Below the pieces are notes generated by a model. It searched no databases. It had not been told where the DNA came from and worked only from the letters and a program-made list of their open reading frames with translations. This document shows positions 5,836 through 40,560 of a stretch of DNA of 64,000 nt, piece after piece. Origin of the DNA: Zygnema cylindricum (Eukaryota; Streptophyta; Zygnematophyceae; Zygnematales; Zygnemataceae). Each line of letters begins with the position of its first letter. Positions within the stretch are counted from its first letter, which is position 1. Location of the stretch: the NCBI GenBank assembly GCA_037447655.1, contig JBBHKE010001088.1, positions 20,195-84,194 on the forward strand, written 5' to 3'. Made by a program: the position numbers and the translations under genes.

Positions 5836-7116
5836 TAAGACTCTCTCAACGTTATTAGTATAGAAAGTAATTTCCCCCATCTGGTGTGATGCTTTAAGAA
5901 CCAAGTCCGATAATGAGGAATTGAATCGACAAGTGGTGTTACTGACAATCTCCGATTAAGGACTCCAGGTTTTATCTCTATTCTCTTGAATCAGTTCCGA
6001 TTTGGAAGTTGTCTTAAAAACCGGATATTGGGTGGAGTCATATGCAGCCGTGGAGATATCACCTGAAGCACTTGCTGTCAGCGAACACCACCTCCAACAA
6101 CTTCACAACCTATATTCGCAATAGCTTCCAGTGTCTTTCATTTCCAAAGCTCACCGAAGTCTTCCCCAGAATGTAGAAAACATCACAACCCCACATCTGG
6201 CCAGTTGGGGATTTGTAGATTTGGTGTTCGCAGGATGGCCTTGTCAAAGATACTCCCTAGCAGGACAAGGAAAAGGGCATCAAGACCGCAGGAGTCGGAG
6301 ATTTTATCAGATGATCACATTAATCTCGTGGATTCAACTGCTCTATGACACCCCGATGGGGTACGTTTTGGAGAATGTCCACCCGGGAGATGATCGACAA
6401 AAACAAGTTGCAGACAGCTAGAATTAGGTAATCCATATTTTAGGAGCTCCCTTGGTTTTCGATGTCGCTCAAATGGGATCACAAACGCATAGAGTAAGGG
6501 CATATTAGACCAATATGATCCCGCTTCAAGTCTTCCGACAATTTTTGGAAAAGCAGATCCCCAACTAGCAGAATTCTGTGTAGCAAATCCTTGGGGAAGG
6601 AAGAATGGCAACCCCCGTGAAAACACTCGACCGCTCCCCCTTCTTTTGGTGCAACAGACCAGGATTCCCACGGAGAGCACTCCCCACATTGGTTTCTTTC
6701 CCTCACAGTCACGCATATCGAAAAGGAGCAACACAAATGACCTTGGACAGCAAGGCGGGAATCTGAACCACACCTTCAATCTCAGAACGCAAACAGGCAA
6801 TCGGATTCTATAAAAACACCATGGCAACACCACGTATTTCAGACCTCTTGAGGTTCATCCTTATAGGGAAAAGTATGTATTTCAATTCAATCACATGGGT
6901 GCTCAAGCATGCACTCTTCTTTTCCAGTCTCAAGTCATTGGAATCAAGGGCTATTTACCTTCAAGCTCCTCAATTGTTAATGCTACAAGCAACTTTCCAG
7001 CTTGATGGGGAGAGAAAAATGAAAAAAAACATCACATTTCACAACCGCTGGTTTCTCCAGTGGGGGGGGCGGCGGCTCAGATTGCGACAGCTTAGCGGAA
7101 GTAGTCAGCTATAGTG
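5836..7116 (+). pseudogene. C5-cytosine DNA methyltransferase domain of T3, broken
   Basis: Recognisable C5-MTase motifs occur in order. Motif I-like QVLSLFS is at about 5966-5986, with the following Gly now a stop. Then come the motif II region VESYAAVEISPEAL (about 6030-6070), motif IV AGWPCQ with the catalytic Cys intact (about 6229-6246), motif VI LENV (about 6368-6379), motif VIII-like QTHRVRAY (about 6480-6504), and motif X-like IGKSMYFNSITWVL (about 6860-6910). Stops occur after motif I, at about 6419, 6426 and 6505, and later. From about 6935 to 7116 is a low-similarity linker toward RT. A function for a living copy, such as methylating element DNA, is inference. The PCQ and ENV residues argue that the source was an active-type enzyme. 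Confidence 0.82.
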
Positions 7117-8181
7117 TGTAGAAATTGATGGTTCTTTTTTAAGTATTTTCTAGGTCTAAATTAAAATACAGAAAGAAGCCTAGGCAGTCTATCGCTAACT
7201 TCTCTTTCCAACTCCCACACTTGTCGCAGTCACTGGGAAGTTGGAGTGGAAGCAAGAGCCATGGCAGCCTAGGCTATCCAGAGATTTACGAGAAATTGAT
7301 TAGTTTATTTACCGCAAATTTTATTTACTAAAAGGGTAGATGTTGGAACTAAGATTTGATTTTGGAACCTGCGGAATGTTAGATAGCCGCTAGCCGGTAG
7401 TTCTAACCGTTAAGTCTAAGACTAATGATATATGATATAGGGTTTGATATTTATCTAAATATTATTACGTAGAATAATTCATTTACCTGCAACTGTTTAA
7501 AAGATACATAGATCCAGTTATGTAAAAGCACGGATTAAGGTGCGGACAAGGAACAAGTACCGCGCATTTGTTTTGATAGCAAAAGGAATACCGCGCAGGT
7601 AGACATCACGGCTACGATTAAATCAGCATTTAATTGGATAATCAGAATGAATGCCGAGATCCCGGAAGAGGATTTTGGCGGTTTTTGGTCATCGCCACAT
7701 CGGATGACACGTGGCAAAAAGACATTGGATCGCGGCATCTCCGAGGATTAAGGGAGCAAATCCGAATATACCACGTGTCGACATTTAGGCCATGTCGTAC
7801 TGTATTCGTACAGAAAGTACACCAACAGTTCTACTTTTGTGTACGGAAGAGGAATATGATTTGTTTCGTACATCAGTAGATAGAGTTTGTGAGAGAGATA
7901 GGACTTAGAAAAATTGGTAGATAGGACCCTCTCTCCTAGAAAGCTTCTGTTAAAAAGGTAAACTTTGACCCTCCACAACTTAGTGCTCAAGGGAGCAAAT
8001 TCAGAGATTCTTTATGCTATCGACTCAGGGGAGTCTTGCCTTCACAGGGGTGAAGGTGGTCAAAGTTTTTGTTTGCAAAGGTGGCATTTATTATTGCTGA
8101 AACACAAAGGGGTCAGGGTTATCCTAGAGGCTTTGTTGGAAGCTGTCCACTCTAAGGACTTATGGAGATCTCAGGGTTTCA
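7117..8181 (+). repeat. 5' LTR of B1
   Basis: 1065 bp, starting TGTAGAAATTGATGG and ending GGGTTTCA. The motif tattttctaggtct follows the start, as in the E, A and G LTRs. It contains a gaaacaa palindrome region (about 7553-7597), a ccacgtgtcgac box at 7771-7782, and near the 3' end the Gag start codon (8162). Confidence 0.9.
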
Positions 8182-8439
8182 AGTTATTGGCCCACCCTCT
8201 AGGGTAACCATTTTTAATAGAACTGGCTTCATATATTGGGAAAATATGATGATAGGAGCTCTATGCGAGAAAAGGTTTTGGGTGATAGTGAGTGGACGAG
8301 TGGGGCGTCGATCAAGTCATATAATCCCTCGAGGGTTTCTAAGGAAGCAAATTCACAAAGAAAGCAAATCCATCTTCAACAAAGGAGACAAAGGAAGGAG
8401 AGGCAGTGGACAAAGCAACGGAGAAGAAGACGACCTCAC

Positions 8440-9489
8440 TGCATTTCTGAGACCTCCATAAGTCCTCAGAGTGGACAGCTTCCAAGAAGCCTCTAGGATA
8501 ATCCTGACCCCTTTGTGTTTCAGCAAAAATAACTGCCACCCTGGCAAACAAAAACCCTGACCACCTGCTCCCTTGTGAAGGCAAGACTCTCCTGAGTCAA
8601 TAGCAAAAAGAAACTCTGAATTTGCTCCCCTGAGCAGTAAGTTATGGAGGGTCAAAGTTGACCTTTTGTACAGAAGCTCTCTGGGAGAGGGGGACCTATC
8701 TTCTAATTTTTCTAAGTCCTATCTCTCTCACAGACTCTATCTATTGATGTACGGAACCAATCAGAATTGAGTTTCGTACGCAAAAGTACAGTTGCCGGTG
8801 TACTTTATGTACGGACATTGTACGACATGGCCAAAATGTCGACACATGTCAAATCCGGATTCGGTGCCATAATCTCCGGAGATTCCACAATCCAACGGAA
8901 TTTCGCCACGCGTCATCCGATGTGGCGATGGCCATAAACCGCCAAAATCTTCCTCCGCGATCTCGGAGCTAATCCCGGACGTCCGATTAAATTCGGATTT
9001 AATCGTATCCGTAATAAATACACGCGCGGTATTTGTTTCACTTACGAAACAAATGCGCGGTATTGATTTTCGTCCGTACCGTAATTCGTACATTATATAT
9101 TACTGGATCTATGTATCGCGTAATCCATTTCAGTTAAATGATTTATCGCAAGTATAATCATTTAAATAAATATCAAACTACATGTTAAGTAATACTACGG
9201 CTAGACTTAACGGCTAAGGCTACCGGCTGTTTTCTGTCTGCCGGCCGGTAGGTACAAGGATCAAATCCTGCCGTCGGCACATACCTTTTAAATAAATAAA
9301 TAAACCCTAATATAAAATTCGCGTAAACCTCAGGATAGCCAAGGTAGCCATGGCTCTAGCTTCCTCTTGAATTTCTCAGTGACTGCGACAAGTTTGAGAG
9401 TTGGAGAGAGAAGTTAGAGATAGACTGCCTCGGCTTCTATATTTCTTTTCAGACCTAGAAAATACTAATAAAAACCATTAGTTTCTACA
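8440..9489 (-). mobile_element. Solo B-type LTR in B1 gag, inverted
   Basis: 1050 bp bounded by plus-strand TGCATTTC...TTTCTACA and flanked by perfect 5-bp duplications ctcac (8435-8439 and 9490-9494). Only one LTR remains, so the original insertion collapsed by LTR-LTR recombination. The interrupted gag frame reads through when this segment is removed. Confidence 0.92.
9200..9280 (+). other. tRNA-like segment in inverted solo B LTR
   Basis: An A-box-like cttaacggctaaggc (9206-9220) precedes ggatcaaatcc (9258-9268), a one-base variant of the Pol III B-box consensus. A cagga/tcctg-like pairing around the B box resembles a T-arm. It lies antisense to the LTR's own coding direction, as in the other families. 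Confidence 0.5.
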
Positions 9490-10339
9490 CTCACCAATAG
9501 CAACTCGTTCAACATTCATCTCACCTATTCTGAGGAACGAGGAGATTGATACTGATACCTAGGACTTCAACAATATGGCGAAAAAACACTTCATCCTCCG
9601 CCATCTTACTCAAGGGCTTGAATGTCCTCATTTGCTGGTAGAAAGGGCATCCGATCTTTGGATGGCTCTCATAGAGATGTAATCAAGTGGTACGATTCAT
9701 CAACAACAATTGGCTGATCAAAAAGTTAAGGAGTATGTATGTAAAGGGGGGAAGATGTTTGATTTTTGCAATAAGCTTTCTTACACTTTTTATAGAGCTA
9801 GAGAGTGTTGGAAAAGATTTTAGTGAAAAATAAAAGGTGAACTGTTTATTGATGAAGTTACCCAATGAGTTCAAGAACATTGTCAACCGTGTGCAAGACT
9901 TGCTTGACTCAAGGTGGATATAGAACTCATTGGTAGGGATGATTCTCGTTCAGGAGAATACAATTGAGATCCTAGGGGAGGAAATATTGGGCAAGCCTTA
10001 GGAGCTGCTACCGATTGGGATTCCCGAAAACCGGTCCGAAACTATGGGGGGAGGGAGAAGAAAAATTAGACCAACGAGTTAGGACCAAGGGCTCCCAAAG
10101 GTTTATGTCATTTTTGTAAGAAACTGGGGCACTATATGGCAGAGTGCACTAAGCTAACCGAGCTTTGGTTAAAGGAGAGGCACACTGGTGGAACCCCGAG
10201 AGGAAAGAAACTGGCCCTTGTGACACAGGTACATGAGGCGGAATCCGAGGACGAGGACAATGAGCTCCTATTCGATGAGGAGTTGGAGGCGAATAACAAG
10301 GTCGAAATTCCACCATGGTAGAAATGTGCTTACGATGGA

Positions 10340-11827
10340 TTGAAAGGTGAAGGAGGCAGGATTGTAGATTCAGGTGCCTCCATGCACATGTGTAAGGATA
10401 AACACCTGTTCACTAAGATTAGAAAGATTCCCACTATAGAGATAGAGTACGTGGATGGGAGGATAGTCACTACTACTCTTCTAAAATCGGTAGATCTGAG
10501 AGTGTTAGTAGAAACAAAGACATCTATAGTTACATTCTCTGATGTAATATTTATTCCGAAGCTGAACAAAAACCTCATCTCTACATCTGTATTAGATGAT
10601 AATGGTTTTTTTACTAACACTAGGGAAGGAGCCTTTACTGCTAGGTTTGAGGAAAAGGTCTATTTCATTGCTGAGAAAGGTAGCCAAGGGATGTTTAGGC
10701 TGATTTTAAGTAATGAAACAAAGAAACTTTATTATGCTGGTGTTCATGATTTATGATGTGGCATAAGAGGCTTGGGCATGTGAATCTAGATAAGTTAAGA
10801 GAGATGAAAAAGATGGGAGTGGTGGAAGGGATTCAGTTTAGTGAGAGTGATAATATAAGTGATTGTATTGGATGTGCTCAAGGTAAAGCACACATATTAC
10901 CCTTTCCCAAAACAGCCACTTACAAGGGAGAAAAAAATCTAGATTTAGTACGCATAGATATTTGGGGACCAGCTAAAGTGCCCTCACCGGGGGGGGAGAT
11001 ATTTATGATGACTGTCACTGATGATTAGTCTTGGTATTCCCGGGTGTATTTTTGGGAAAACAAGTCAAAAGCTCAAGATTGTTTTAGACAATATAAAGCA
11101 TGGAGCGAAAAACTCCATGAAACTCCAATCAAGAGAGTAAGGAGTGACAATGGTGGAGATTATACTTCTAACCAAATTGAGGATTTTTTGAGAGAAGATG
11201 TCCAACACCAAAAGGAAGTTCCAGAAAACCCTGAATAGAATGGGGTAGTTGAAAGATTAAATAGGGCACTAAGTGATAGTGCTAGAAGTATGTTGTCGGA
11301 TAAGAAGATAGGAAAAAGGTTTTGGGCAGAAGCAATGAATTGTGCTAATTACCTCAATAATAAAGTTTTTACTTCAGCTAGAATAGATCAAACACCTTTT
11401 GAGAGATGGACAGGCCGAAAACCAGACATATCTCACTTAGAGCTTTTCGGCAGTCAAGTATTCAGTCTAGATACGGATTGGTCAAATTGGAAGCTAGATC
11501 CTAAAGGAAAACGGGGATACTTATTATGATATGATGAGGATGTTAAAGGATATAGAGTTTATGATCTAAAAAAGGAAGATATAATCTTAGTAAAGCATCT
11601 AGTAGTTATGGATGAAGGAAAGTGTGTGGATCCCTTCAAATATACGAAGTCAGTAAAAATCAGATTTGAGTCAGAAAATTCCGATGACTTTGAGCTTCCT
11701 AACTATCCAGGTTTTAGAGAAGATGACATTCTTGCAGGTACAAATCAGACCGACAGGGACTCGGCTGTGGAAACTACAGTGACAACTCTACCCGAAGCGG
11801 AAGATGTGGTGGAAATTGAAATGAGTT
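10340..11827 (+). pseudogene. Protease and integrase of B1, broken
   Basis: The protease has an intact IVDSGASMHMCKDK motif at about 10360-10400. The GAG-pre-integrase motif MWHKRLGHVNLDKL starts at about 10755, and CIGCAQGKA supplies the second metal-binding pair. The integrase core carries TVTDD (about 11010) and RSDNGGDYTS (about 11140), then a WAEAMNCANY segment. Stops at about 10755, 11026, 11236 and 11527 break the frame. The acidic linker after integrase ends where element D begins, near 11828. Confidence 0.87.
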
Positions 11828-14800
11828 TAATCAGATTCAGAATCAGTTTAGATAGTTTAATCCAAGAAGAAATAGACAATCTTTCAATGCTTGTTTTTAT
11901 TGTAATGAAAAAGGTCATGGATACAAATTCTGTCCAAAGCTTAAGAAAGCTAATGAAACAAGTCTATATAGGCCTGGATGGCAGCAGAGCTAGTTTCATC
12001 AAGGCTTCACGGGATCATCACAACGAGGAAATGCATTATTCTCGGCGTCCTCATCTCATCACAACGAGTCTCTTTCACTCTCTAACGAGTAGGATGATGA
12101 TTTATTTGCTATGGCGGCAGCAATGGAGGCGCTAAGGACAATGGATGGATAATGGACACGGGAGCGTCCGCCCACATGTGCTGGAACAAGGCAGTTTTCA
12201 AAAATCTGATATCAACACCAGAGAAAAATATCTACTTTGCATGTGGAATAAGTGTGCAAACGCGGGCTGCAGGTGACATCTCCTTGCTAGTGGATTAAGA
12301 GGGCAAGGCAGTTGAGAGAACTCTTCATAATGTTCTATATGTCCCGGATTTTAAGAAAAATTTGTTCTCAACTTCTTTGGTAGAAAGTAAAGGGTTTGAG
12401 GTCAATCTAAAACATGGCAGGCTGTTACCAAAAATGGGAAAATTGCAGTTACAAGAACAATGGATGCCAGCAAAATGTATCGAATGGATATGCCCGATAA
12501 TAAAGAAATTTGATGTTTTGTATTCTGGTGCATTATCCTCAGATGAGCTGTGGCATAAAAGGTTAAGCCATGTGAATTATGATAGTATGAAAAAGATGGT
12601 CACTGCTGGTAAAATAGAAGGAGTCACTTTATCAAACCAGTCACCAAAAACGTGTTATGGATGTGCACTAGGGAAAATACACAGATTATCGTTTCCTCAG
12701 GAGTCTGAACATAGGTCTACGAAGCAACTCATTCATTCTGATGTTTTCGGCCCTGCAAAGGTACCATCTGCCGGGGGGATGAAATATATGGTTACGTTTA
12801 CATGGTTACCTTTACAGATGATTTTTCGAGGTTTACTAAAGTTTACTTCATGAAAGAAAAGAGTGAAGTCTTCACTCATTTTCAACACTACAAAGCGTGG
12901 GCGGAGAAACTACACGGTCTGCCAATTCTGGAGCTCGGAACGGACAATGGCGGGGAATATACGTCAAAAGAGTTTGAAATCTTCTTACTCAAGGAAGGTA
13001 TAAATCACAAATTGACTGTCCCATACTCTTCGGAACAGAATGGGGTCTCGGAAAGACTAAATAGAACTATCACAAAAAGCTCTAGGTCCATGCTTGTAGA
13101 TAAGGACGTAGATCCGAAATTCTGGGCTGAAGCATTAAATTGTGCGGTTTATATCAAAAATAGGATAGGTTCCAGATCGGTAGAAACCACCCCCAATAAG
13201 ATATAGAAGGGTAGAAAACTGGATGTTAGGCATTTCAAGGTCTTTGGAAGTAAGTGTTTTATGTTGTCCATAGCCATTTCTAGCCATGGATTCACCCTAG
13301 GAAGCACCACAGACTACCCTAAAAAAAGCGTACTTTGGATACATACAGAATTCAACAGAATTAACAAAACAAGCTGAAAATTTATTTAAAGATATTATCT
13401 AGGATATAAAATGACCTCATTAAGTTTCAGAAAAAAATAATAAACAGATTGATCACATCATCTAGTCAAAGTTGCAAAAAAGCAGTCTGCCGAACTTTGA
13501 TCAGACAGACTAACTTCACCATGAAGTAAAACACAGACCAGGCACACAATATACCTGAAAATCTGTGACAAATCAAAAATATAAATAGGAACAAACATGA
13601 ATAATTTCGGATAATTCTGCTAGCAGATCTGAGAGTAATCCTCAGATAAAATTACCAAAAATAACCATAAACAGTTTTTGGTCCAAAAAGTTCCTATGTC
13701 CTAAAATGACGAAGTCCTACAAATATATACAAGAGCTTACTGCTGAATGTACAGATGCATATCAGCGGTACGCTATCTACCAGCTACCTTTGTTAATTTC
13801 GGTATACCCGAATACTTCAAGGTATGTCAAAGTAAGTAAATCTACACTAATAATTAATTCACAAAAAGACACATCAATGTTCAACCAAATATTTACATCG
13901 ACGCTTCCGTAAAATCCGCGTACTGAGTATCAACTTGATTAGTCACTTGAGGACGAAACCACGTCATGAACCGACATCACATACGTACGGTCCACTTGAT
14001 ACCACATTATAAAAATACAATCCTTTGGAAATATCGGCGGACGCCGTCCGCCCTCCAAATGTACAACGGACCTCTTGCCGAAATTAAACCGTACCGAATT
14101 TGCGTCCTTTGCAATAAATACGCCTCTCGCAAATAAAGTACACTTGTCCAAATAAGACACTTCTTACCGGCGGCGTACATATTCAACATTTCGTAAATTT
14201 CACATCGGATCGCTTCGCGATCCGCCGTCCATTTGTAAACGTATCCCGAGCCACTCAATTAATCCTTTTAATTTCAATCGTACAATAACTCCCCCAATCC
14301 ACAAATCCATTCGAACCTCCATTTGTACCACCACAATATTTCCGGTAATAATCTACGCACAAACCGTCGCGTGCGCACAAAATGTGGCGTAAGTACGAAA
14401 CTAACATTTCAAAAACAACACTTTATTTTGGATACGTCTAATGATAGATGGAAAATGGAACCTAAGGGGTTGCCGCGCATTCTCTTAGGATACGATGATC
14501 ACTCTAAAGGTTATAGAGTCTTTGTTTTTGAGAGGAAGAAAATCATTGTAGCAAGGAACATCGTTGTCAAAGATGAACTAGACTCGATAGACTCATTTAA
14601 AATGACAGAGCAGCAGAAGCAGCAGAAGCAGCAAAAAGTACAGGAATATGCCATTTTAGATAGCATCCATAATATTGTCCCACTGATGCAAAATTCACCA
14701 GTGGTACCACCGGAATCATAACATAATCAGGTTCCACAACAGGTTCGTTTCGAAGCGCAACAACAACAGTCACTGGCTATGGATCGCAGCTAGCGCAACA

Positions 14801-16487
14801 AGCGCAACACACGGGATCCGACAATTTCAGCCTCAGAATTTCCGGGGGGAAGAAGATCCAATAGCTGCCTGTACGCAAACTCTCACTTTGCCTACTCGGC
14901 AGCCTCAGCGGAGCCTCTGACCATCCGGGAAGCCTTCTCATCACCGGAGCGGAATTACTGGATCGAGGCGGCAAATGATGAAATGAAGTCGATCATGGAA
15001 GCTCACACATGGGAGCTTCTGGACCTTCCTCCGGATCGAAAAGCGTTCGGCAGCAAATGGGTATTCAAGGTGAAGTTAAATCTAGAAATACCATTGAACA
15101 ATACAAGGCCAAACTTGTGGCAAAGGGATAGAATCAAAAGGAAGGAATTGATTTAGAAGAAACATTTTCTCTTGTGGTAAGATTTCCGACAGTTAGGATT
15201 TTGCTATCTCTAGCTGCTATAGAAAATATGGAAATACATCAGATGGATGTAAAGACGGCCTTTTTGCATGGAGAACTAGAGGAAACCATTTACATGCAGC
15301 AACCTGAAATGTATGCAGAACAAGGAAAAGAGCATTTAGTATGCAAACTACTAAAATCTTTGTACTGCCTAAAACAGGCCTCGAGGCAATGGAATCTAAA
15401 AGTTGATGAATTCTTAACTGGCTTAGGATTTAAAAGGATAAGTTCTGATCACTCTGTCTATGTGTTAAAGGGTGAGGATGGAATAGTGTATATAGCTATA
15501 TACTTAGATGATTTACTATTAGTTAGCAAATCAATGGCTGATATTAAAAAAAATAAAAATGCTTTAAAATCACTGTTCGAGATGAAAGACCTCGGAGAGG
15601 CAAAGTATATTTTGGGTATCCAGGTAGAGAGGGACAGGGAAAATAGATTAATAAAATTGACTCAAAATGAGGCTATTGGAAACATGATAGATGAATATGG
15701 AATGCGGGGGGCAAAAGGATGTCTAACTCCAATGGAATTTCGACATAAGTTAGAGGGGGAAGAAACACAACCTGGTGTTATTGTCAGTGAAATTTTTGAG
15801 TCAGGCGAGGATGATCCTATGACAGTGATACCTTACAGATAGATAGTGGGAAGTTTAATATATTTCATGAACTGTACCCGTCCGGATATTGCTGCTGCAG
15901 TTGGGGTACTTAGCAAGAGTCTAGAGAATCCGAGGAAATCTGACCGTGATGCAGCAAGAAGAGTGTTAAGATACTTGGCAAGAACCAAAGACCTCAAACT
16001 CACACTAGGCGGAAGAGAAGTGAAGCTGCAAACATGGAGTGATGCAAGCTTTGGCGATATGCCAAGTCGAAAATCCACCACGGGATTCGTTCTGCAAATT
16101 GGGAACGGGACTTGCTGTTGGAGCAGAAAACTGTAAAAGGTCACAGCACAATCGGCGATGGAGTCAGAATATATGGCAGCGAGTTCGGCCCTCATAAAAC
16201 TCTTGTAGGTGAAATCCATGTTGCAAGAATTGGGATACATGCAGGTTGGTCCACAAGTGATCTGGTGTGATAATCAAGCTGCCATTGCCATTGCTTCTAA
16301 CCCAAGTCACCACTTCAAAAGTAAGCACATGGATGTAAGATTACACTTTGTAAGGGAAAAAGTGTTCTCTAGAGTGATTAAATTATGCTATTTGCCAGAT
16401 ACAAAAATGGTTGCTGATATGCTCACTAAATCTCTTCCTGCTCCTAAGCTGAAGTACAGTAGAGACGCAGTGGGATTAAGTGAATAG
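11828..16487 (+). pseudogene. Gag end and pol of D, broken by an LTR insertion
   Basis: A CCHC knuckle (CFYCNEKGHGYKFC) is at about 11890-11935 and a protease motif WTRERPP/IMDTGAS region at about 12145-12175. The pre-integrase motif LWHKRLSHVNYDSM starts at about 12548, and the integrase core TFTDDFSRFTK is at about 12803-12840 with GTDNGGEYTS at about 12940. After the F-LTR (13262-14420) the frame resumes in the FILDTSND motif. RT has YLDD at about 15500-15520; RNase H spans 15846-16487 and ends in the ADMLTKSLPAPKL motif. Stops and a 14-bp tandem duplication (12788-12815) disrupt it. Confidence 0.87.
13262..14420 (-). mobile_element. Solo F-type LTR in D integrase region
   Basis: 1159 bp; the minus strand starts TGTTGTTTTTGAAATG and ends GGCTATGGACAACA. 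Flanks tttta (13257-13261) and cttta (14421-14425) are a 5-bp duplication with one change. Removal restores the D reading GSKCFILDTSND. The same LTR type occurs in plus orientation at 18298-20623. Confidence 0.88.
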
Positions 16488-17607
16488 CTGAGTTTCTGCA
16501 CTGCAATACTGCCATGCTGCGCTAGTCCAATTACGAGAATGTAGTGGGAAAAAGTGACTTGCTAAAATTGTTACGTTGCTATGCTGCGATGCTGCGCTAG
16601 TTCGACATCGAAGCTGCGCTGGCATATTGAGTCTAAAGCTTTAGGGGAGTGTTGTTCTTGGAAAGCTTTAAGACTCAGCATATTTATAGGACGGCGGAAA
16701 AATAGATCTATAGGGACGCGCTTCGTCACTTGAAGCACAGTGCAGGTTTTGAATGGTACCGACAACGCAGCTGCGTCGCAGATGGAACAAGCGCAGCTGC
16801 GGTTATTTTTGATATGGCCTGTACGGACGAACGCAACCTGCGACGCAACGGGACAAACCAAACTGCAGACATTTTGGTATAAGACAACACAGTTGCTACG
16901 CAACATGACAAACGCAGCTGCGACAGTTTTCGGAATGGGATAGCGCAGCGGTTACGAAGCTGCAGATATTTGAATGTGATCAATAATCAAGCTGCGCTGC
17001 TACGGTTGATATGAATAAACTCAACGGACGAGATTCATAAGAGAAAAATTAAGTAACTTAACAACCGGATGGACGTATCCAGACAATTGTCACTAAGCTA
17101 GGCGACAAGTATTTGAACAAATCACTTGTATAAGATTCTCAGTAATATTGATTGTACAGTGATGGGTTAGTTTTAGCGTGATTAGGAGCACTTAGACCAT
17201 AGTGGCAGTTTAGGTCTTTTGGACTTATCTTTTAGGAACACTTGTATCAGCGGTACAACACTATGTAGTAGGACAACTGAGTGAAGAGTATAAGACTTAG
17301 GGCGTAGAACATTTTATGTATCAAGACTTCCAGACTGTGTAATCTGCAAACTATTTTTGGGAAACTTCTGAGTTGCATATCTTGGTGTATGTTGGATCAA
17401 TTGAGCTGAAACATTAGGAGTTGTTTTTCTTTGTTATATTCTATACTCTGGTATAGTTTGAAATAGTTTGGTTCATTGTATCAGATTTGGTGAGCTGTTG
17501 AAAACAGCTGTTTAATAGGATTCTTGATAAGCTTCCGTGAGTGAGATTATGTCTTCTTCCACTACTACTGCTGATGCTCCACCTGTTCCAATGGTTGTAG
17601 AACAATA
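16488..17607 (+). repeat. 3' leader and 3' LTR of D
   Basis: After the RNase H stop, a non-coding stretch leads to the purine-rich taggggag and an LTR beginning TGTTGTTCTTGG at 16650. The LTR ends near 17607 after a short frame MSSSTTTADAPP, which corresponds to the Gag start encoded at the end of the C-type LTRs. The interior is rich in repeated gctgcg/cagctgcg words (16740-17000). Confidence 0.8.
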
Positions 17608-18669
17608 AATCTATGTTTTTGAAGATGAGGAAGGTGTTATATTTATTGCAGTTTATGTTGATGATTTGCTTGTTTTAAGTAAATCAATGGAAAAAATTAA
17701 AAGACTGAAAACCGATCTTAGAGGGAGATTTGAAATGAAGGATATGGGGGAAGCAAAATATATTTTGGGAATTCAAGTAGAAAGAGACCAAAAAAGAAAG
17801 ATTATAAGATTGACTCAAAAGGAAGCAATAGGGAACATGCTTGAAAAATTTCAGATGGATAAAGCTAATAGTCGTACAACTCCAATGGAGTTAAAGAAAG
17901 GAAGTGAGGGGAGTGAGGAAGAAGGAGTCATAATCTTAGATGAGAAATTATCTCCTGAAGAACAAAAGTTCATGCAGACTATTCGTTACAGGCAAGTACT
18001 GGGAAGTCTTATCTATTTTATGAATTGTAACCGGCCGGATTTAGCTGCAACTGTAAGAGTGCTGAGTAAAAGTCTAAATGCTCCCACTAAAAGGGATTGG
18101 GAGGCAGCTAAGAGAGTTCTTAGATATTTGATAGGAATAATGGATCTATGGTTGCATTTGGGTGGGGAAAATACTGGCATCACCACTTGGAGTGATGCTA
18201 GTTATGGTGATGCTTTCATGATGAGATGTACTTCTGGATATGTATTATATGTGGGTGATGGGGCTTGCTGTTGGAGTAGCAAACAACAAAAGGTTATTGT
18301 TGTTTTGAAATGTTAGTTTCATGCGTACAAAACATTTTATGCGCACGCGACATTTCGTGCGTATGTTATTATCGGAAGTAATGTGGTTATACAAATAGAG
18401 GTTCGAATGGATTTGTGGATTGTGGGAGTAAATGTATGAGTAAAATTAAAAGGACGTGATGGAGTAATTGAGTGGCGCGAAATGCGTTAAGAAATGGACG
18501 GCGGATTGCGACGCGATCCGACATAAAATATTCAAAGAGATTGAAATGGTACGTTGCACATACGAAACATAATGCAACAGGTGGCATTTATTGCAAACGA
18601 CGCGACGGTACAAAGAATCCTATTTTACAGGAGTACTTAAAACTGGTAGGCGTAATTTATGGCGAAGTA

Positions 18670-22733: not shown

Positions 22734-23027
22734 TGTTGTTTTTTGAAAGCTTTAGTCCTCTCTATGCCTCACTTGTGAGGGAGAGAGAGCTGTTCAGGAC
22801 TTAAGTTATTTTTGGTTGAGTTCGGTTCAGTAATTACAAAAATTAGTGTGACAATGAAGTTGGAAGTTCACAGTTCATTCACACTTGGGACACGCGTCGT
22901 CACTTGAGAGAAATGCGTGAGTATGTCCTCCGTGGACGTACGGAAATTCTGCAGGACCACGACACTTCGTGAAGTCACATCTATGGTGCCAAATCCTCTA
23001 AGCGGACGGCTGACAACCGCCGCCAAC

Positions 23028-24123: not shown

Positions 24124-24136
24124 CTCCCCTTATTTT

Positions 24137-30700: not shown

Positions 30701-31818
30701 TCTGAAACAGGCTTCGAGACAATGGAACCTGAAGTTAGATAAGTTTTTAACAAATCTTGGCTTTACCGAATCATTTTAGATCACCCAGTCTATTTAATGC
30801 AAGGTGAGGATGGAGTGATTTATGTGGTAGTATATGAAGATGATTTGCTGTTGATTAGAAAATCTATCAATGAAATCAATAAAATTAAATCAGATCTGAA
30901 TTCTCGGTTTGAAATGAAGGACTTGGTGAGGCTAAGTATAATCTAGGAATTCAGGTAGAAAGAGATAGGAAACAAAAAATTATTTATCTAACTCAGAAAG
31001 AAGCAATCGGGAACATGCTAGAAAAGTTTGGTATGTCAGAAGCAAAGGGGAGTGCCACCCCTATAGAATTCAGGCAGAAGTTGGAGGGTACGGAAACGGA
31101 TGGTGGTGTTTTGGTTGATGATTTTTTGTATTCAGGGGAGGCAGATTCTATGTCTTCCATTCCTTACAGGCACATTGTCGGTAGCCTCATCTATTTCATG
31201 AACTGTACTCGTCCGGACATCGCAGCCGCAGTTGGAGCCTTGAGCCAAAGCCTGCAAAATTTGAGGAAGTCGGACTAGGAGGCAGCAAAGAGAGTTCTTC
31301 GCTATCTTGCAGGAACTCGAAATCTTAAACTCACTCTCGGTGAAGAGGAAGTTAAAAAAAATACATAGAGCGATGCGAGCTACAAAGATATACGCAGCCG
31401 ACGCTCCACCACCAAATACATTCTAAAGATCGGAAGTGAAACTTGCTGCTGGACCAACAAACTTCAGAAGGTAACAGCTCAGTCTACCATGGAGGCTGAG
31501 TACATGGCTGCCAGCTCGGCAGTTAAGGAGCTACTTTGGGTAAAGTCTATACTCCAAGAGCTTCTCTTTATGCAATATGGACCACAGATAGTATGGTGTG
31601 ACAATCAGGCAACAATCGCTATTGCATCTAATCCCAATCATCACTTTCAGAGTATGCACATTGATATCAAGCTACATTTTGTAAGAGAAATGGTGATGGG
31701 AAAAGTCCGGAAGTTGAGTTATTTACCGGATGAGCAAATGGTGGCTGATATGATGATGAAACCATTACCTGCACCCAAATTGAGGTTCTGTAGAGTCGCA
31801 TGTGGACTAAGTGACTAG
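27707..31818 (+). pseudogene. Gag-pol of C1, broken
   Basis: Gag starts in the LTR and passes through ITGPPSRI at the primer site. The zinc knuckle at about 28410 (CVYCYIDGHSFKAF) has lost its last Cys. The protease motif IMDSGSSSHMCWNK is at about 28695-28735, pre-integrase LWHKRLGHVHHERL at about 29090, and the integrase core TFTDDNSRYSR/RTDNSVEYVS at 29340-29500. The RT begins at about 30240 (EPLTIQEAFSVPEKEHW); its catalytic box at about 30830 reads YEDD. RNase H runs 31015-31818 and ends with ADMMMKPLPAPKL. Stops are scattered (about 27957, 28100-28340, 29680, 30467, 30530-30950). Confidence 0.88.
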
Positions 31819-31938
31819 CAAAGTCTAAAGCTTTAAAGGAGTGTTGTTTTTCGAAAGCTTTAGTCATCTCTATGCCTCAACTGGGAGGGAGAGAGAGCAG
31901 TTCAGGACTTATGTTATTTTTGGTTGAGTTCAGTTCAG

Positions 31939-32642
31939 TGTTGTTTTGAAAGCTTTAGTCCTGACTAAGCTTCATAGGTGAGGGGAGTGTTTTCTCAGTA
32001 CTTAGAATATTTTGTGAAAGTCTGGTTCATAATGTACCAGAATTAATGTTACAGTGAACAACGAGGGAGTTCACAATGTGACACACTTCAAGACACGTGT
32101 CGGTAAATGAGACACTCTACAAAGATCCGTTGGTACTATTCAGACTTACCATAAAGACCGAAGTGTCTCATTTCAGATTCTCTCTGTATGACATACCTTG
32201 ACATATTCAGGTATCCTCTTCTAGATAGTAGATATTAATGATGTATGGCTGGTTTGCCTTCTTTGCTGAGTTAGGGCAATAAGTGGCTCATAGCTCTTAG
32301 AAAAATAGATCTTTTAGGTATAAGAATAGGACTTAGTCATTTCAAAATTAGGAACTTGTTGTATCAAAATTATGCTGTGACGTTTTTGATATCTTTGACT
32401 GAGAATATATCCCAGATCTGTTTGCAAATTTCTAAGTAAATTTGCACTTGTGTTCTTTTGTGTATTATCTGCATTGTGTCAGATTTGTAGGCCATTTGGT
32501 TGCCTAAATTATCTTTGGTTGTGTTCCAAAGTTGTGTGTATTTTTTTAAGCATCTGTGAGAGCTTCTTGCTTATCTTAATTCTGTGATGACTACTCCAGC
32601 ATCATCTTCATCTTCAGTTGGTGTAGTAGTCACAAAACAACA
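31939..32642 (+). repeat. 5' LTR of C2
   Basis: 704 bp, TGTTGTTTTGAAAGC to cacaaaacaaca. The Gag ATG is at 32587, inside the LTR. The primer-site equivalent at 32643 reads GGTCACGGGCCCACC, keeping GGGCCCACC but not the TTAT part seen in the other families. Confidence 0.92.
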
Positions 32643-35600
32643 GGTCACGGGCCCACCCTCACGGATCCCAGTTTTGAATGGAAGGAAATACATCTATTGG
32701 TCTGATCTGGTTGAGTCATATTTCACTCAAGTTAAATTGTTTGATGTAGTTGATGGCAGCCTTGCTGAAACTGAAGCATCCTATAATGGGAAAAATCAGC
32801 AAGCTCTGCATTTGTTGAAGTTAATGATCACAGAAGATCTACTTATGTCACATATCAAAATGAAAAAGGCATCGAAAAGATGGTCTTCCTTGAAAACCAT
32901 CTATTTGAAAGCTAATGACCAACATGAAATAATCACAGCTGGGAACATTTTTGATTATAAGTATACAGGAGGTAGCATGGCTGAATATTGTAATGGTCTT
33001 AGGCTTTTGTTGGCAAAAAATGCATGTTCAGGGGAGAACTTTTCCCCTTATCATTAGGCTATGATTCTTATGCGAGGTCTTTCGAGGAATATAAAGGAGC
33101 CTTGGCTGATTTGAGAAAGTTGGATAAGTCAGCCTTGAACTTAGCAACAGCTATAAAAGTAGTATTAGAAGAGGAATCTACTGTTGTAGCTTTTAATCCA
33201 AGAAAATCATATGTAGCTTTTAATGCACAGTATCAAGGAAACATATCTCAGGGGTATCAAGGCTTTTAGCCTAATAACAAGTGTGTCTAGTGTTATAATC
33301 AAGGACATCTGTACAAACAGTGTCCTAATTTTCTTAAAGCTTGTGAGATAGGTGTGTTCAGAAATGGATGGAGGCCAAAATGGATCTACAAGCCACAAAA
33401 GAGACCACATACACCACTGACTCTTCCTTCCAAAACCGAAGCATTTTCAGCTGATACACCGAGATCGGTTGACAAGGGGAAGGCGCCAGATGTCGTCAAT
33501 TTTCCAAAAATTGATGACAAAGATTTCTTTGCCCTTGCAAAACTGATGGAGGGAGACAAAGACCACGGGTGGATCATGGTTTCAGGAAGCTCATCTCACA
33601 TGTGCTGGAACAAAGCTTCCTTCACAAATCTACAACCTATTCCAACAAGGCAGATCTATTATGCTTGTGGTGCCACAGTTGAAGCAAAGGCTCAAAGAAC
33701 TGTCATCCTTATGTGTGAGATAGATGGACACGCAGTTCCTAGAACTCTCTATGATGTATTGTATATTCCTCAGTTCAAAAAGAACTAGTTTTCTACCTCA
33801 GTTGCAAAAAGTAGAGGTTTTGAAATACTTCAGAAACAAGGAAAGAAAATAGTCAGCAAAGAGGGAAGGGTAGCCATAATGTGAACTAGAGGCCCAAATA
33901 ATTTGTACCGGATGGACCTGGTGAATACATATTCTTTTGTTTACTCTAGTGTCTTATCTGATAATGTTTTGTGGCATAAGAGGTTGGGTCATGTTCATTA
34001 TGAAAAATTGGATAAGATGGTTAAAAATAATATGGTAGAAGGAGTTAAGCTTGGTCAGCAACAGTCAAGTATTTGTGATGGTTGTGCTTTGGGCAAGCTT
34101 TTTAAACTTCCCTTACACCAAGCTGCAGATTTCAGAGCGACTAATATCTTAGAACTTGTTACATAGCTGTGTGGGGACCCTCTAAAGTACCATCTCTTGC
34201 TGGCAACAAATATTTTGTCACATTCAAAGATGACTTCTCCAGATTCAGCAGAATCTATTTTATGAAGGAGAAAAAAGAAGTCTTCACCCACTTCAAACAC
34301 TTTCGGATCTGGGCGGAGAAACTTCATGGTAGATCAATTCTCTCTTTAAGATCTGATAATGGAGGTGAATATACTTCCAATGAGTTTGCTGCTTATTTAA
34401 AAGAAAATGCTATATCTCACCAGTTCAGTGTGCCTTACACTCTTGAGCAGAATGGAGTCTCAGAAAGGCTAAAGAGAACTCTAACTGAGAGTGTCAAATA
34501 TATGATGTCTGGTAAAGGAATAGATATTAAATTCTGGGCTGAAGCTAACCAAACTGCAACATATATTAGGAACATATAAGAAACTAGATCTGCTCAGGGA
34601 ATTACACCTTATGAAGTGTAGACTGGCAGAGAACCAGATGTCAGTCACTTCAGAGTTTTTGGTAGCAAGTGCTTTGTACTAGATAATCTACCAAACTGGA
34701 AACTGAGTCCAAAGTCTAAACCTGGAATCTTTATGGGATATGATGATAAATTTGTAGGATATATAATTTATTTTCCTCAGAAACATACCATCAAGATTGC
34801 TATAAATGTTCAAGTAAAGGATGAGAGTGAGTCCATAGATGTATTTAGTTTGGATGAGAATGAAAAGAAAGAAAAACTGCAAGAATATGTCATCTTGGAT
34901 CAGATTCCCTTTCAGTCTGCTGTAACTTCTACTTCTTCTTCTACTAGATCGCAAAATACTGGAGTACCATCAGCTACTGAACAACAAACAACAACTGATC
35001 CTCTCTTTCCAAGACCTCAAGGTGAAGCTCGATATCCAACAGTTCTAGCCTCAGATTTTCTAGGGGGAAGAAGACAGAGTTCTTGTTTAAGGGGAGAACA
35101 AGTTCAATATGCTTTTTCTGCAAGCACCGGGGAGCCTCTTACCATTCACGAGGCATTTTTTGTTCCTGAAAATAATCATTAAATCTCAGTTGCAAATGAT
35201 GAGATGAGATCGCTTCTACCGGATCGAAAAGCCATAGGCTACAAGTGGGTCTTCAAATTGAAGCTCAACCTAGACAACACCATTGAAAGGTATAAAGCTC
35301 GTTTGGTTGCAAAGGGTTTTAGTCAAAAGGAAGGAATAGACTATGAGAAAACCTTCTCTCGTGTTGTCAGGTTTCTTACGGTCAGAGTCTTGCTATCTTT
35401 AGCTGTAATTGAGAATATGGAATTGCATCAAATGGATGTTAAAACTGCCTTCTTGCATGGAGACTTAGAGGAAGTAATCTATATGAAACAACCTGAAGGT
35501 TATGTAGAAAAAGGAAAGGAAAATCTAGTTTGTAAACTGTTGAAATCATTGTATGGATTGAAACAGGCTCCACGATAGTGGAATTTGAAGTTGGATGAGT

Positions 35601-36675
35601 TTCTTACCAGCTTGGGCTTTACAAGGATCAGCTCAGATCACTCTGTTTATGTCATTGAAGGAGATGATGGTGTGATTTATGTAGCAGTGTTTGTAGATGA
35701 TCTGCTTCTAATCACCAAATCATTAAATGAGATAAATAAGATAAAGGCAGCTCTGAATGCTAGGTTTGACATGACAGACTTAGGTGAAGCTAAGTATATC
35801 CTAGGTATTATAGTAGAGAGAGATAGGAGTTAGAGAGTTTTTTACCTCCCCCAGAGAGAGGCCAGTGGAAATGTACTTGAAAGATTTGGCATGACAGATG
35901 CAAAAGGGAGTGCCACTCCTATGTAGTTCATGCAAAAGGTGGAAGGAAAGGGGACAGATGGAGGAATGACTCTCGAAGATGATATGGAACCAGGGGAGTC
36001 AGACTTCATGTCCACGATTCCCTACTGACAAATTTTTGGGAGTCTTATCTACTTTATGAACTGCACTCGTCCGGATATCGCAGCGGCTGTTGGAGCTCTG
36101 AGTCGAAGTCTTCAAAATCCGAAAAAATCAGATTGGGAGGCAGCAAAACGAGTTCTGCGATATCTTGTAGGAACACGAGATCTCTGACTGTCTCTTGGAG
36201 GAGATGAAGTGAAGATCAACACCTGGAACGATGCGAGTTATGGTGATATGCCAAGCCGGCGTTCTACCACTGGATTCATTCTGAAGATCGGTAATAGTAC
36301 TTGCTGTTGGAAAAGCAAGCTCAAAAAGGTGACTGCTCAGTCAACCATCAAAGCTGAATACATGGCAGCTAGCTCAGCAGTTAAGGAACTTCTTTGGGTA
36401 AAGTCTCTCTTACAAGAACTGAAATTTATGCAATCTTGTCCTCATGTCATTTGGTGTGACAATCAAGCTGCTATTGCTATTACTTCTAATCCTAGTCATC
36501 ATTTCAAAAGCAAGCATATTGACATAAAGTAACACTTTGAAGGGAAAAGGTGGTGGGCAGAATTTTGAAACTCAGCTACTTACCTGATGAGAAAATGTTG
36601 GCAGATATGATGACAAAACCCTTACCTGCCCCAAAATTGAAATTATGTAGAGAGGGATATGGTCTAAGTAGTTAG
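32587..36675 (+). pseudogene. Gag-pol of C2, broken
   Basis: Gag MTTPASSSSSVGVVV then VTGPPSRIPVLNG. The zinc knuckle (about 33282-33325) has a stop between its first two Cys. The protease site reads IMVSGSS, so the catalytic Asp is now Val. Integrase FKDDFSRFSR and RSDNGGEYTS lie at 34220-34370. RT runs 35204-35833 with FVDD at about 35690-35705. RNase H runs about 36030-36540 with further pieces to the stop at 36673-36675. About ten stops or shifts are visible. Confidence 0.88.
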
Positions 36676-36695
36676 TAGAGTCTAAAGCTTTGGAG

Positions 36696-37399
36696 TGTTT
36701 TTTTGAAAGCTTTAGTCCTCACTAAGCTTTATAGGTGAGGGGAGTGTTTTCACAGTACTTAGAATATTTTGTGAAAGTCTAGTTTAGTATGTACCAAAAT
36801 TAATGTTACAGTGAATAGCGAGGGAGTTCACGCTGTGGCAGACTTCAAGACACGTGTCGGTAAATGAGACACTCTACAAAGATCCGTTGGTACTATTCAG
36901 ACTTACCATAAAGACCGAAGTGTCTCAGTTGAGATTCTCTCAATATGACATACCTTGACATATTCAGGTATCCTCTTCTAAATAGTAGATATTTTTGATG
37001 TATGGCTGGTATGCCTCCTTTGCTTAGTTAGGGCAATAAGTGGCTGCTAGCTCTTAGAAAAATAGATCTTTTAGGTATAAGAATAGGACTTAGTCATTTC
37101 AGAATTAGGAACTTGTTGTATCAAAATTATGCTGTGACGTTTTTGATATCTTTGACTGAGAATATATCTCAGATCTGTTTGCAAATTTCTGTGTAAATAT
37201 GCACTTGTGTTCCTTTGTGTACTATCTGCATTGTGTCAGATTTGTAGACCATTTGGTTGCCTAAATTATCTTTGGCTGTTTTCCAAAGTTGTGTGTATTT
37301 TTCTGAGCATCAGTGAGAGCTTCTTGCTTATCTTAATTCTGTGATGACTACTCCAACATCATCTTCATCTTCAGTTGGTGTAGTAGTCACAGAAAAACA
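36696..37399 (+). repeat. 3' LTR of C2
   Basis: 704 bp, TGTTTTTTTGAAAG to agaaaaaca, preceded by the short purine stretch tggag. Differences from the 5' LTR are mostly single substitutions. Confidence 0.92.
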
Positions 37400-38160
37400 T
37401 TCAGTACTTACCAAAATTAGTGTGAAAGTGAAGTTGGGAGTTCACGATTCATTCACATTTGGGACACGCGTCGTCACTTGAGAGAAATGGGTGAGTATGT
37501 CCTCCATGGACGTACGGAAATTCGGCGGGACCGCGGTACTTCATGAAGTCACATCTATCGTGCCAAATCCTCTAATCGGACGGCTGACAGCCGCCGCCAA
37601 CAAATACTGATGATGCATGACTAGATCACTATCACTTTACCTTGTCGGAACTTTGGTGTAAATATTTGGTAGAACATAATTTTGTCTGTAGTGAATTAGT
37701 TGTTTAGTGTTGAGAATGTGACTTATGACATACCTTCAGTATACAGGTATACTCATAGTATTTTTGTGTAAGAATGTTAGATGTACGGCTGGAATGCCTT
37801 CGTACAGCTTAGTGTAGTTTCAGTGTATAGAAGTAGGACTTAGTAAATTTTGATTTATTAGGAACAAATGATTTGAAAAAACTGTGCACTCAATTTTATG
37901 AAAATTCACCTTTGAATATCTCACACATCTGTGAGCACAATTAAGTGAAATTTTATGTGTGTGTTCCTTTGTATGATATCTACATTGTGGTAGATTCGTC
38001 GGACTATTGTGTCCCTATATTGAAAGTTATTTTCTGTCAAAGTTGTTGTTTTGCTATTGGTATTTGTGGAAGCTTCCTCTCTTGTTTTGTTCTACAATGA
38101 CTACTACTGCTGCTTCTTCTTCATCTTCAGTACCATCAGTTGTCTCAGAATAACCAAAAA

Positions 38161-40560
38161 TGCACTGGCCAAATTCCAAGGGGCAATGGACGAATCACTC
38201 CGAGGGTTCGATTGCGCCAGGTGTTACATTGATGATGTCATTTTCTTTTCCAAGACCTTTGAGGAACAATTGGAGCATGTCTAAATCGTCCTCCGGGCCC
38301 TCTAAGCAGCGGGCTTGAAATGTCACCTGGGCAAAGGTATTTTTGGGGTTCAAAGAATCATTTACCCCGGACATGAGATGACTCCCAAGTATATGGGTCC
38401 CCACATGGTGAAGGTGGCAGCAATAGACGCTCTTCCTTCACCTAAGGACATCTCGGCCCTTCGCACATTCCTGAGCCTTACGAACTACTATTGGTGGTTT
38501 ATCCCCGAGTTTAGTTGTCACGCTTAGCCCCTTACTCAGTTATTGCGGATGGACCAAGAATGGCAGTGGGTTGAAGAGCAACAGATCGCCTTCCAGTTCT
38601 TGAAGGATGCTCTGATGTAGCACCCCGTGCTCCAAATGCTTGATCACCAGAGGCCTTTCCTCCTTTACACTGATTGGAGACAGTTTGGATTGGGAGCAGT
38701 TTTGGCTCAAGTCGATGATGCTAGAGCTGAGTATGTGGTGGCTTACGCCAGCAAGAGCAATAACCGAGCAGACGGGAATTATAGCAGTTACCAAAGAGAG
38801 CTCCTCGCAGCTGTTTGGGCAATCCAACATTTTCAGCCTTATTTGTACGGGGTCCATTTCACCATGATTACTAACCACCAACCCCTGAAATGGATCCTAG
38901 AAAATAGTAAGTTAACCGGCATACTCGCCATATGGGTTCTTATCCTGGAGGAATATGATTTCGGCATTGTTCACTGGGCAGGGGAAATCCATGGGAATGC
39001 CGACGGACTTAGCCGAAATATCGATCCTTCCACCCTGGATTCTACCAGAGCTCGGCATGAAGAGGACTCGGAAATCAGTTTGGGACTCATTCGAGCATCC
39101 TCCGCCTTCATCTTGCTTTCCCAATCTGGGGGGGAACTATCAACTTTTGCGACAGACGTGGAGGGGCAGGCGCCCATAGGAGACAGACGGAAGGATATCT
39201 AGAATGTCTCCGATCCACTCCAATCTATCCTGCAGGGGTATCCTCTTCCCCATTAGGCTAGAGTTGAATTATATCGATTTCAGACCCGGATGGCGGCGTA
39301 TGATTGGGACCGAGGCATACTCCTCCAAAAATGGTCACATGACAAGAGGAAAGTGGTTCCTCCCCTTTCAGATCGAGAAACTTTGATCACCCATCTCCAC
39401 CAGCAATCTAGACACTTTGGGCAGAATCGGACCACTTCCATGGTTACCAGTTCTTATTGGTGGCACGGGTTGTTGGTCGAAGTCTACCAAATTGTGCAGA
39501 CTTGGTCTTCATGTGATCGAGTCAAAGCAGTTTTTGACAAAAAAGGCGGAACTAAGCTTCATTCTCTTCCTATCCGCGGGATGTTTTATCAGTGTTTTTT
39601 ATATCTTTAGGGACCTCTTCCGACTACCAGATAGGGGAACCGTTTCGTGCTATTCATGATAAAGCATTTTTAAAAATGGATAGAGTTGGTGGTTTTGCCC
39701 TGGAAGGAATCTAAGTCAATTGTAAATGCTTTTTTGTAGAGGGTGCTATCACAATATGGGGCACCAGCAGAGGTTCTAACAGACCATGGATCCTAATTTG
39801 CCGGAGAATTTACCAATATTTTGGAGAAATGCCTCATTGATCACTGACTGACAAGTCACAACCACCCCGAAGCCGATGGTTTGGCCGAAAGGTGCGAACA
39901 CACATTGAAGCTGTCACTACATAAATATGCAGTGGAAGAAGATTTGGGAGAGTGGGACTGGAGGGTGCCTTGGATTGCCATGGGATACACATTCAGCTGA
40001 CAAGCTTCTCTCCACTTCTATAGCCCTTACTTTATTTTGTTTGGACAACATCACATCGTGCCCAGGGCTGCCTCGACCTAAGCGGTGGTCAACTTGGAGA
40101 TGGATGATAGGGAACTGTAAAAAAATCGATCACCGATAGAGCCAAGATATTCCACCGAGAGATGCCCCTTGCCATGGGGAATTTACAGGTTGCTCAACAC
40201 CGGGATTAGTTGTGATATTCTCAACGCCGCATGGGGGATTATGTGCCACGGCAGCGAAGATTTATACCTGAGGACTTTGTATATCGCATGCAAGAGCAGA
40301 AGGACACGCTTAATATTTTTGTTCGGCGGGTGATTTTAAAAGTTATCGAAGTTTCAAACAAAGGGGTTTCTACCTTGGAGGGGATGGATGGTAAAAGAAT
40401 TAAGGAGAATCAGATTAATGTGGCCCCTTGCCATCTTCGGGGATAGCAGGACGAACCCACTTTTCAGTGGCTTTACTTTGTCGATCCCCCTTCCTGTTCA
40501 TCAGCATGCAGCCTGTCCTTTCAGCTTCCCAACGTTTTGATTTGCAATCAGTGTAGTACA
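38161..40560 (+). pseudogene. T3 gypsy RT C-terminus, RNase H and integrase, broken
   Basis: The RT catalytic box CYIDDVIFFSK is at about 38220-38255. RNase H (38640-38910) has LYTDW, QRELLAAVW and ITNHQPLKWI; the last normally reads TDH, so one catalytic Asp is Asn. A zinc-binding integrase segment (HQQSRHFGQNRT...CDRVKA, about 39395-39530) lacks the first Cys of its CxxC. Core pieces LTDHGS and HPEADGLAER (39780-39890) carry Asp and Glu of the DDE triad. A C-terminal domain at 40231-40446 ends VAPCHLRG. It is joined to MPFGLKN at 22733 across C1. Confidence 0.87.

Follow-up and report, generated by a model that had tools for sequence, protein, structure and literature searches.

A decayed copy of a large DNMT3-carrying Ty3/gypsy family in Zygnema cylindricum, with proposed readthrough, circle and methylation steps

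Introduction

A 64,000-nucleotide stretch of the Zygnema cylindricum genome, referred to here as the window (positions 20195-84194 of contig C809, in an assembly of 352.8 Mb and 2,689 contigs), carries a C5-DNA methyltransferase (MTase) domain and, further along the same strand, gypsy reverse transcriptase (RT), RNase H and integrase sequence, with copia insertions nested between them. This arrangement raises the question of whether the MTase and the polymerase domains once belonged to a single retrotransposon, as the initial annotation proposed, and, if they did, how the enzyme was made and what it did for the element. We find that MTase, RT, RNase H and integrase form one element, sharing one frame in other copies in this genome, and that the window copy is dead, split up by nested copia insertions. 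Taken as a whole, we consider it probable that the window holds a relic of a Ty3/gypsy family that carries a DNMT3-like MTase, and for this family we propose steps of stop-codon readthrough, circle formation and methylation. Contigs of the same assembly are given below as C numbers and fetched loci of the same genome as L numbers (L013 is C1374, L012 is C544 and L009 is C1344).

Results

Layout of the window copy

The pieces of the element and the insertions that separate them are as follows, with the evidence for each in brackets.

5836..7116, plus strand: piece 1 of the element, comprising a short N-terminal linker, the MTase domain and a linker towards the RT (tblastn, residues 32-424 of the L013 frame to 5867-7030); position 5835 to its left is the last base of a copia long terminal repeat (LTR)
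5951..6910, plus strand: C5-MTase domain, DNMT3-like, with 9 in-frame stops (PF00145; aligned at 51-62% to copies of family F1, described below)
6239..6247, plus strand: PCQ catalytic motif (sequence read)
6371..6379, plus strand: ENV motif (sequence read)
7112..7116, no strand: TAGTG target duplication, left side of copia B1 (sequence read)
7117..22058, no strand: copia B1 with additional copia insertions, separating MTase from RT (LTR pair)
22059..22063, no strand: TAGTG target duplication, right side of copia B1 (sequence read)
22064..22739, plus strand: piece 2, pre-RT and the N-terminal part of the RT, frame-shifted (tblastn, 57% to L013 7217-7888)
22740..38158, no strand: C1 insertion, nested copia sequence within the RT, edges approximate
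38159..39208, plus strand: piece 3, C-terminal part of the RT and RNase H (Pfam RT_RNaseH 102 bits, RT_RNaseH_2 105 bits; 81% to L013)
39209..40560, plus strand: H2C2 zinc domain and DDE integrase core (H2C2 36.8 bits, rve 28.9 bits, the latter below cut-off; 74% to L013 over 301 amino acids); position 40561 to its right is the first base of another copia LTR

The MTase domain is recognised in window frame 5402+ by PF00145 (E=2.2e-6, 27.8 bits, cut-off 22), and Pfam finds the RT end, RNase H, H2C2 and integrase core in 38159-39868, the RT end scoring 18 bits with RVT_1 (cut-off 29.6) and the integrase core falling short of a cut-off of 32.6. The MTase features described by the initial annotation hold up well: ENV lies exactly where it was placed, the motif X-like end put at about 6900 agrees with a domain end at 6910, and the verdict that the copy is dead is borne out by 9 stops among 320 MTase codons. 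PCQ is present, one base away from the 6238-6246 first given. Removal of copia B1, whose LTRs (7117-8181 and 20992-22058) share 90.9% identity over 1068 columns, at its TAGTG duplications does join the MTase to the RT. The further claim, that removal of C1 joins the RT to RNase H and integrase, stands by homology to L013, on which the join rests, the C1 target duplication being imperfect (GAATG/AAATG).

MTase and Pol share one frame in other copies

The unbroken frame of L013, 1394 residues long, covers the window pieces in order by tblastn, all on the plus strand. Beyond the piece 1 alignment listed above, residues 441-691 end at 22737 (this alignment starts spuriously, within the B1 LTR), 689-1340 correspond to 38156-40111 and 1342-1393 to 40114-40269. 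The order of MTase, RT, RNase H and integrase on one strand that had been read from the window is thus colinear with an intact frame elsewhere.

When open reading frames (ORFs) of other copies were scanned with Pfam, five of six held MTase and RT in one open frame. C1374 and C544 carry MTase-RT-RNase H-H2C2-rve in single frames of 1,520 and 1,525 amino acids, and C1344 adds a zinc knuckle (below cut-off) ahead of the same series in a single frame of 2,395 amino acids. In C1407 (1,757 amino acids) and C449 (1,643) the frame runs from MTase through RT to RNase H, with integrase further downstream; the C82 frame (866) has the MTase without RT. In all 12 fetched 10-kb loci (L009-L020), too, the MTase is followed by RT on the one strand; these loci are a selection from 123 PF00145 matches, made mostly for long frames. 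RT, RNase H and then a DDE integrase in one Pol frame, a Ty3/gypsy feature, are present in C1374, C544 and C1344. No tyrosine recombinase, the mark of DIRS elements, was matched in the 16 ORFs or pieces scanned, among which rve was matched, and a gag zinc knuckle and aspartic protease upstream of the MTase gave weak Pfam matches, below cut-off.

We conclude that the MTase-RT fusion is real, because unbroken frames in other copies and 12 of 12 loci repeat the same order. The alternative is that MTase and RT come from separate elements, or that the MTase is a host gene, and that nested insertion alone brought them together; the window is indeed a nest of insertions, with an imperfect C1 duplication, and such a history could be imagined for it. 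Chance adjacency is, however, ruled out by the shared open frames and the 12 colinear loci, and we regard a separate origin as extremely improbable. The initial annotation had named as its refutation other copies in which the MTase belongs elsewhere; within the source genome the five ORFs and 12 loci point the other way. Of the check it proposed, that MTase and Pol share one frame and LTR pair, the frame is confirmed; the repeats are split A/B repeats and not an ordinary LTR pair.

The MTase is DNMT3-like

Against sequences in the PDB, the intact F1 domain scores best with DNMT3A (57.7 bits, with HhaI at 26 and DRM2 at 20.6), and neither DNMT1 nor CMT is among its 48 hits. A profile built from F1 and F2, the two families described below, again places DNMT3 first at 73.6 bits, followed by HaeIII at 37 and then HhaI, DNMT2 and DRM2 (32), and even the broken domain of the window has DNMT3 at the top (27.2 bits, E=2e-5). 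In the alignment motif I stands ahead of PCQ and ENV, which is the ordinary order and not the DRM-like rearranged one. Assigned by search scores and motif order, the enzyme is therefore classed as DNMT3-like and unrearranged; the DRM, DNMT1 and CMT classes are ruled out by the scores.

A large family under purifying selection

A search of the genome with the C1374 MTase gave at least 126 matches at 64-100% identity (125 scored of 1,858 candidates), 26 of those listed being without a stop, and a PF00145 search gave at least 123 (123 scored of 782 candidates). The MTase is a trait of a large family in this genome. In a search of viral contigs for relatives, 20 stretches fitted a pattern and none was confirmed.

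Two families can be told apart by their identity to the window MTase. F1 consists of the window, L001-L003, L006, L008, L012, L013, L016 and L019 (52-64%), and F2 of L009, L010, L011, L014, L015, L017 and L018 (31-37%); the two are 42% identical over 328 residues of the MTase region and 49% over 793 residues of Pol. Given that the MTase occupies the same place in both, a single capture predating the F1/F2 split would be the simplest reading. The catalytic motif is GWPCQG in the aligned F1 rows and GWPCQR in the window itself. In seven of nine unique F2 copies ECQ replaces PCQ, with Cys and Gln kept (GWECQG in C1344, C1407, C449, C829, C1848 and C2602, GSECQG in C82), and the pattern was not found in the remaining two, C2678 and C1112. 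F2 may thus retain an altered or inactive enzyme in long open frames, and its activity is doubtful.

The ratio of nonsynonymous to synonymous substitution rates (dN/dS) in the F1 MTase is 0.12-0.39 where finite, dS not exceeding 0.19 there; where dS was saturated, the pair yielded no value. The F1 MTase is under purifying selection. For F2 the single finite in-register pair gave 0.11, the L018 row having been left out as it was cut out of register.

An amber stop precedes MTase-Pol in F1

F1 copies have a single in-frame TAG between a frame with a weak protease match and MTase-Pol. We examined 27 stretches, consisting of seven unique copies and 20 fetched for this comparison, and located the site in 24; in C1880 and C636 its place is taken by other sequence, and one C1508 stretch was misplaced. 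MTase identity to C1374 is 67-100% among the copies where listed. The stop is TAG in all 24 and is followed by CAATTC in 23, the exception being C1662 with TAATTC. Even the distant C412 (52% to the window) carries the TAG. The residues on either side are similar and in one frame, mostly DIAD.I*QFPISKRWE. F2 has no need of such a stop, the C1344 frame being open from knuckle to integrase.

Since TAG precedes MTase-Pol at every located site, readthrough is likely, and we think that MTase-Pol is very probably made in this way, so that the enzyme would travel with RT and integrase at Pol dosage. In another possible explanation the amber does end translation, and MTase-Pol is begun at a Met further on, either internally or by re-initiation. 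A Met does lie 19 codons past the stop in six of the seven unique copies (not in C412). The classic leaky-stop context is CARYYA, and CAATTC matches it at five of six positions, ending in C, which counts against readthrough, as does the result of a search for a structured stimulator: no marked RNA fold was seen behind the amber in the one copy folded (z -1.05). A downstream start would, however, require neither TAG in 24 of 24 sites nor similar flanking residues held in one frame, and we consider it improbable. That the upstream frames contain another readthrough stop was also considered and rejected, the stop of C1374 being missing from C544.

Terminal repeats, ends and target duplications

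The integrated element has the order A1-coding-B1-A2-B2. These repeats lie around C1374, C1344, C449 and C1042 and, in part, C1407. In C1344, A1 (85514-86444) and A2 (94981-95911) are identical, and B1 (94737-94978) and B2 (95912-96154) share 99.6% identity; C1374 is rearranged and has a third B (31421-31632). A G-run adjoins B1. A 501-bp probe of G-run, B1 and A2 gave at least 43 matches, 39 of which span the probe from position 12 or earlier to 489 or later (40 of 527 candidates scored).

Elements begin with TGTC and end with GACA; of the B ends read, 17 of 18 close in GACA and one in AACA. These ends are near-perfect inverted repeats (TGTCAAGCG/TGTCGAGCG in F1 and TGTCATGC/TGTCGTGC in F2). 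The B1|A2 junction is the palindrome GACAGCTGTC, composed of both termini with GC between them, in eight of 15 stretches scanned: five of the six stitched contigs (not C544), C1848, and C829 and C2602 among eight further loci, several of which may stop short of the 3' end. The six stitched contigs contain it five times in 179 kb, against an expectation of 0.12. C1042 (L026) has, near 281628 and beside the element, another B|A junction in degenerate form, GAAAGCTTTC, altered and still palindromic.

The 22 A starts have unrelated flanks, except for two in C1820 with a common flank. These two (C1820:102595-104050) are 246 bases apart with an identical 5' flank, which would suit a duplication of the insertion edge. 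Perfect 4-bp target duplications are found in eight of 13 paired F2 copies (C1344 TTGG, C215 GTCA, C54 TACG, C2130 ACCG, C1234 GTGA, C744 ATTC, C1093 TTGA and C1820 GAAT). In the F1 contig C544 the duplications GAAC and AGCT match only when its two elements are read crosswise; there the two F1 elements (L022 and L012, contig 116589-122391) seem to have swapped ends via an inversion between two A repeats. On distance alone, lone A-B units, which would be the counterpart of solo LTRs, are suggested for C215, C54 and C2130 (about 1.17 kb) and for C1820 (1.46 kb).

The A2|B2 join varies. It is exact in C1344, has one extra base in C1848, C1374 and C449, and lies behind a shortened A in C1407 (705 of 931 bases) and C1042 (806 of 1186). 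This variation occurs among copies whose A2 repeats (C1344, C1848 and C1407) show identity of at least 99.8% in the part they share.

Discussion

How the element may insert, and what the MTase may do

By the ordinary rules of LTR elements, a G-run adjoining B1 would set the repeat of the complementary DNA (cDNA) as B followed by A, yet the inserted copies start with A and end with B. We lean towards a route in which the G-run primes the plus strand, giving a linear cDNA with BA repeats; the cDNA ends would be joined into a circle, leaving the A2|B2 join, and the DDE integrase would open this circle within one repeat, at the B|A palindrome (GACA^GCTGTC), so that the ends are permuted. Passing from BA-coding-BA to A1-coding-B1-A2-B2 implies such a joining of cDNA ends and an opening at one B|A. 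A circle with one repeat would yield A-coding-B, like the C544 copy once its inversion is read back. The alternative is that the A-B-A-B form arises during reverse transcription by template switching, DIRS-style, from a linear molecule with no integrase-cut circle, and DIRS elements do have the identical repeat order in the consulted sections of PMC5890265. Two features of the repeats speak against it. The A2|B2 join looks like end-joining because it differs (exact, one base longer, or with the A end lost) even between near-identical copies such as C1344 and C1407, and a B1|A2 site made of both termini plus GC is what cleavage by a DDE enzyme 3' of CA on each strand would lead one to expect. 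We regard a DIRS-style origin as rather unlikely.

As to the enzyme, an MTase within Pol would sit beside the cDNA, and methylation there could protect or disguise a persisting double-stranded intermediate: the cDNA would be methylated before insertion, with the result that the host does not see it as foreign or that the new copy arrives in a chosen state. De Mendoza et al. proposed cDNA methylation for DIRS elements in the consulted part of PMC5890265. We hold this role to be plausible without calling it probable. The MTase might instead act on the host (on element chromatin, on host sites, or by slowing transposition) or have a non-catalytic role in Pol, options that the same part of that paper lists and that the ECQ found in every F2 copy with a discernible motif would suit. 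Set against them are the PCQ, ENV and S-adenosylmethionine motifs of F1, kept in open frames under constraint, and the location of the enzyme in Pol, presumably beside the cDNA; we see these options as a credible alternative, if a somewhat less attractive one. The steps in combination, namely insertion from an end-joined circle cut at the internal GACAGCTGTC and a DNMT3 made only by readthrough that methylates extrachromosomal DNA so that the host accepts it, make up a tentative scheme that we rate as rather unlikely to hold in full. That the element controlled its own methylation, as the initial annotation suggested, we can only infer.

Several results weigh against this account. The palindrome is seen in just eight of 15 stretches and the duplications not in every pair: a perfect one is missing from five of the 13 F2 pairs (C1571, C1643, C561, and C1307 and C449 with three of four bases each) and none accompanies the F1 copies C1374 and C1042. 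For C1234 and C1820 the matching partner was picked from two possible ones, and for C544 likewise among alternatives. At the expected A1 of C1848, whose A2 is nearly perfect, there is only a 76%-identical A piece, and no A1 was found for C1407. In the window itself the amber region and the repeats are both missing; the 5' part of the element was not found in the 8.2 kb upstream of the copy, and a search with the repeats of C1374 and C1344 found no terminal repeats. The E-for-P change in the catalytic motif makes activity doubtful in F2, and the Klebsormidium nitens domain had no activity in yeast, a result its authors call inconclusive, as far as the consulted part of PMC5890265 goes.

Relation to known systems

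The closest known system, KnitGypsy-Dnmt3 of K. nitens (de Mendoza et al. 2018), is similar, in the sections of PMC5890265 consulted, in having a DNMT3-class MTase within an intronless gypsy Pol frame, DIRS-like A-coding-B-A-B repeats with gypsy domains (figure legend), and purifying selection (dN/dS below 0.2, compared with 0.12-0.39 in F1). It differs in its host, and the likeness is to the published description and not to the sequence. SymbioDIRS-Dnmt3 of Symbiodinium, from the same sections, also has DNMT3 in Pol and A-coding-B-A-B repeats; it has a tyrosine recombinase, whereas the Zygnema element has a DDE integrase core. A gypsy that carries DNMT3 is thus a kind already known, and the initial annotation was right that MTase captures are on record in algae and dinoflagellates (PMC5890265). 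The consulted part of PMC12344493 also mentions streptophyte and dinoflagellate retrotransposons with DNMT3.

The foamy-virus integrase, a DDE enzyme, is reported to cut the palindromic junction of two-LTR circles and to leave processed ends (PMC1180852, in part), and the HIV-1 integrase is reported to do likewise in vitro (PMC1905944, in part). There the palindrome is at the LTR-LTR junction; in the Zygnema element it lies inside the repeat, at B|A, and the permuted form that would follow is deduced from sequence only. Literature searches listed no account of gypsy insertion by the opening of a circle.

The consulted sections of PMC5890265 mention neither the amber nor the ECQ family nor the palindromic B|A site, and no literature search was aimed at readthrough or ECQ. 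What appears to go beyond that description is the amber, the ECQ family and the anatomy of ends, target duplications, palindrome and variable A|B join. In the open-access literature we found no report of MTase-bearing retrotransposons from Zygnema, and 'KnitGypsy' only in PMC5890265. The genome of Zygnema cf. cylindricum SAG 698-1a_XF has 29.8% Copia and 5.9% Gypsy (consulted part of PMC11096116), in keeping with the abundance of copia in the present assembly, and the main text of that paper contains none of the terms 'DNMT', 'retrotransposon' and 'DNA methyl'.

The present results place DNMT-carrying gypsy elements, which the consulted sections of PMC5890265 describe from Klebsormidium, in a further genome, where they are numerous; their role can thus be put to the test in an alga that is probably a near relative of land plants. 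With the repeat anatomy, 'DIRS-like repeats on gypsy' becomes a testable insertion route, tied to an enzyme that may be able to mark the intermediate. The amber would offer a way to study enzyme dosage, and the ECQ family would be a natural test of the need for catalysis.

Other features

Upstream of MTase-Pol in F1, L013 has a proline-rich frame of 412 amino acids without a Pfam match (L013:896-2131), and about 690 bases (L013:4283-4975) lie between its gag-like and protease frames. Outside F1 and F2, L007:1498-1797 is a short exon-like frame that probably belongs to a host chromomethylase (CMT): it scores 102 bits to its best three PDB chains, including 4fsx, which we take to be the maize chromomethylase ZMET2, and 51 bits to the next, DNMT1 chains, a match that suits a host among green plants or streptophytes. 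No RNA families or tRNAs were found in the window; its copia LTRs contain, by eye, the candidate tRNA-gene B-box-like stretches GGTTCGAGTC and GGATCAAATCC, at 5600-5632 and about 9250-9262.

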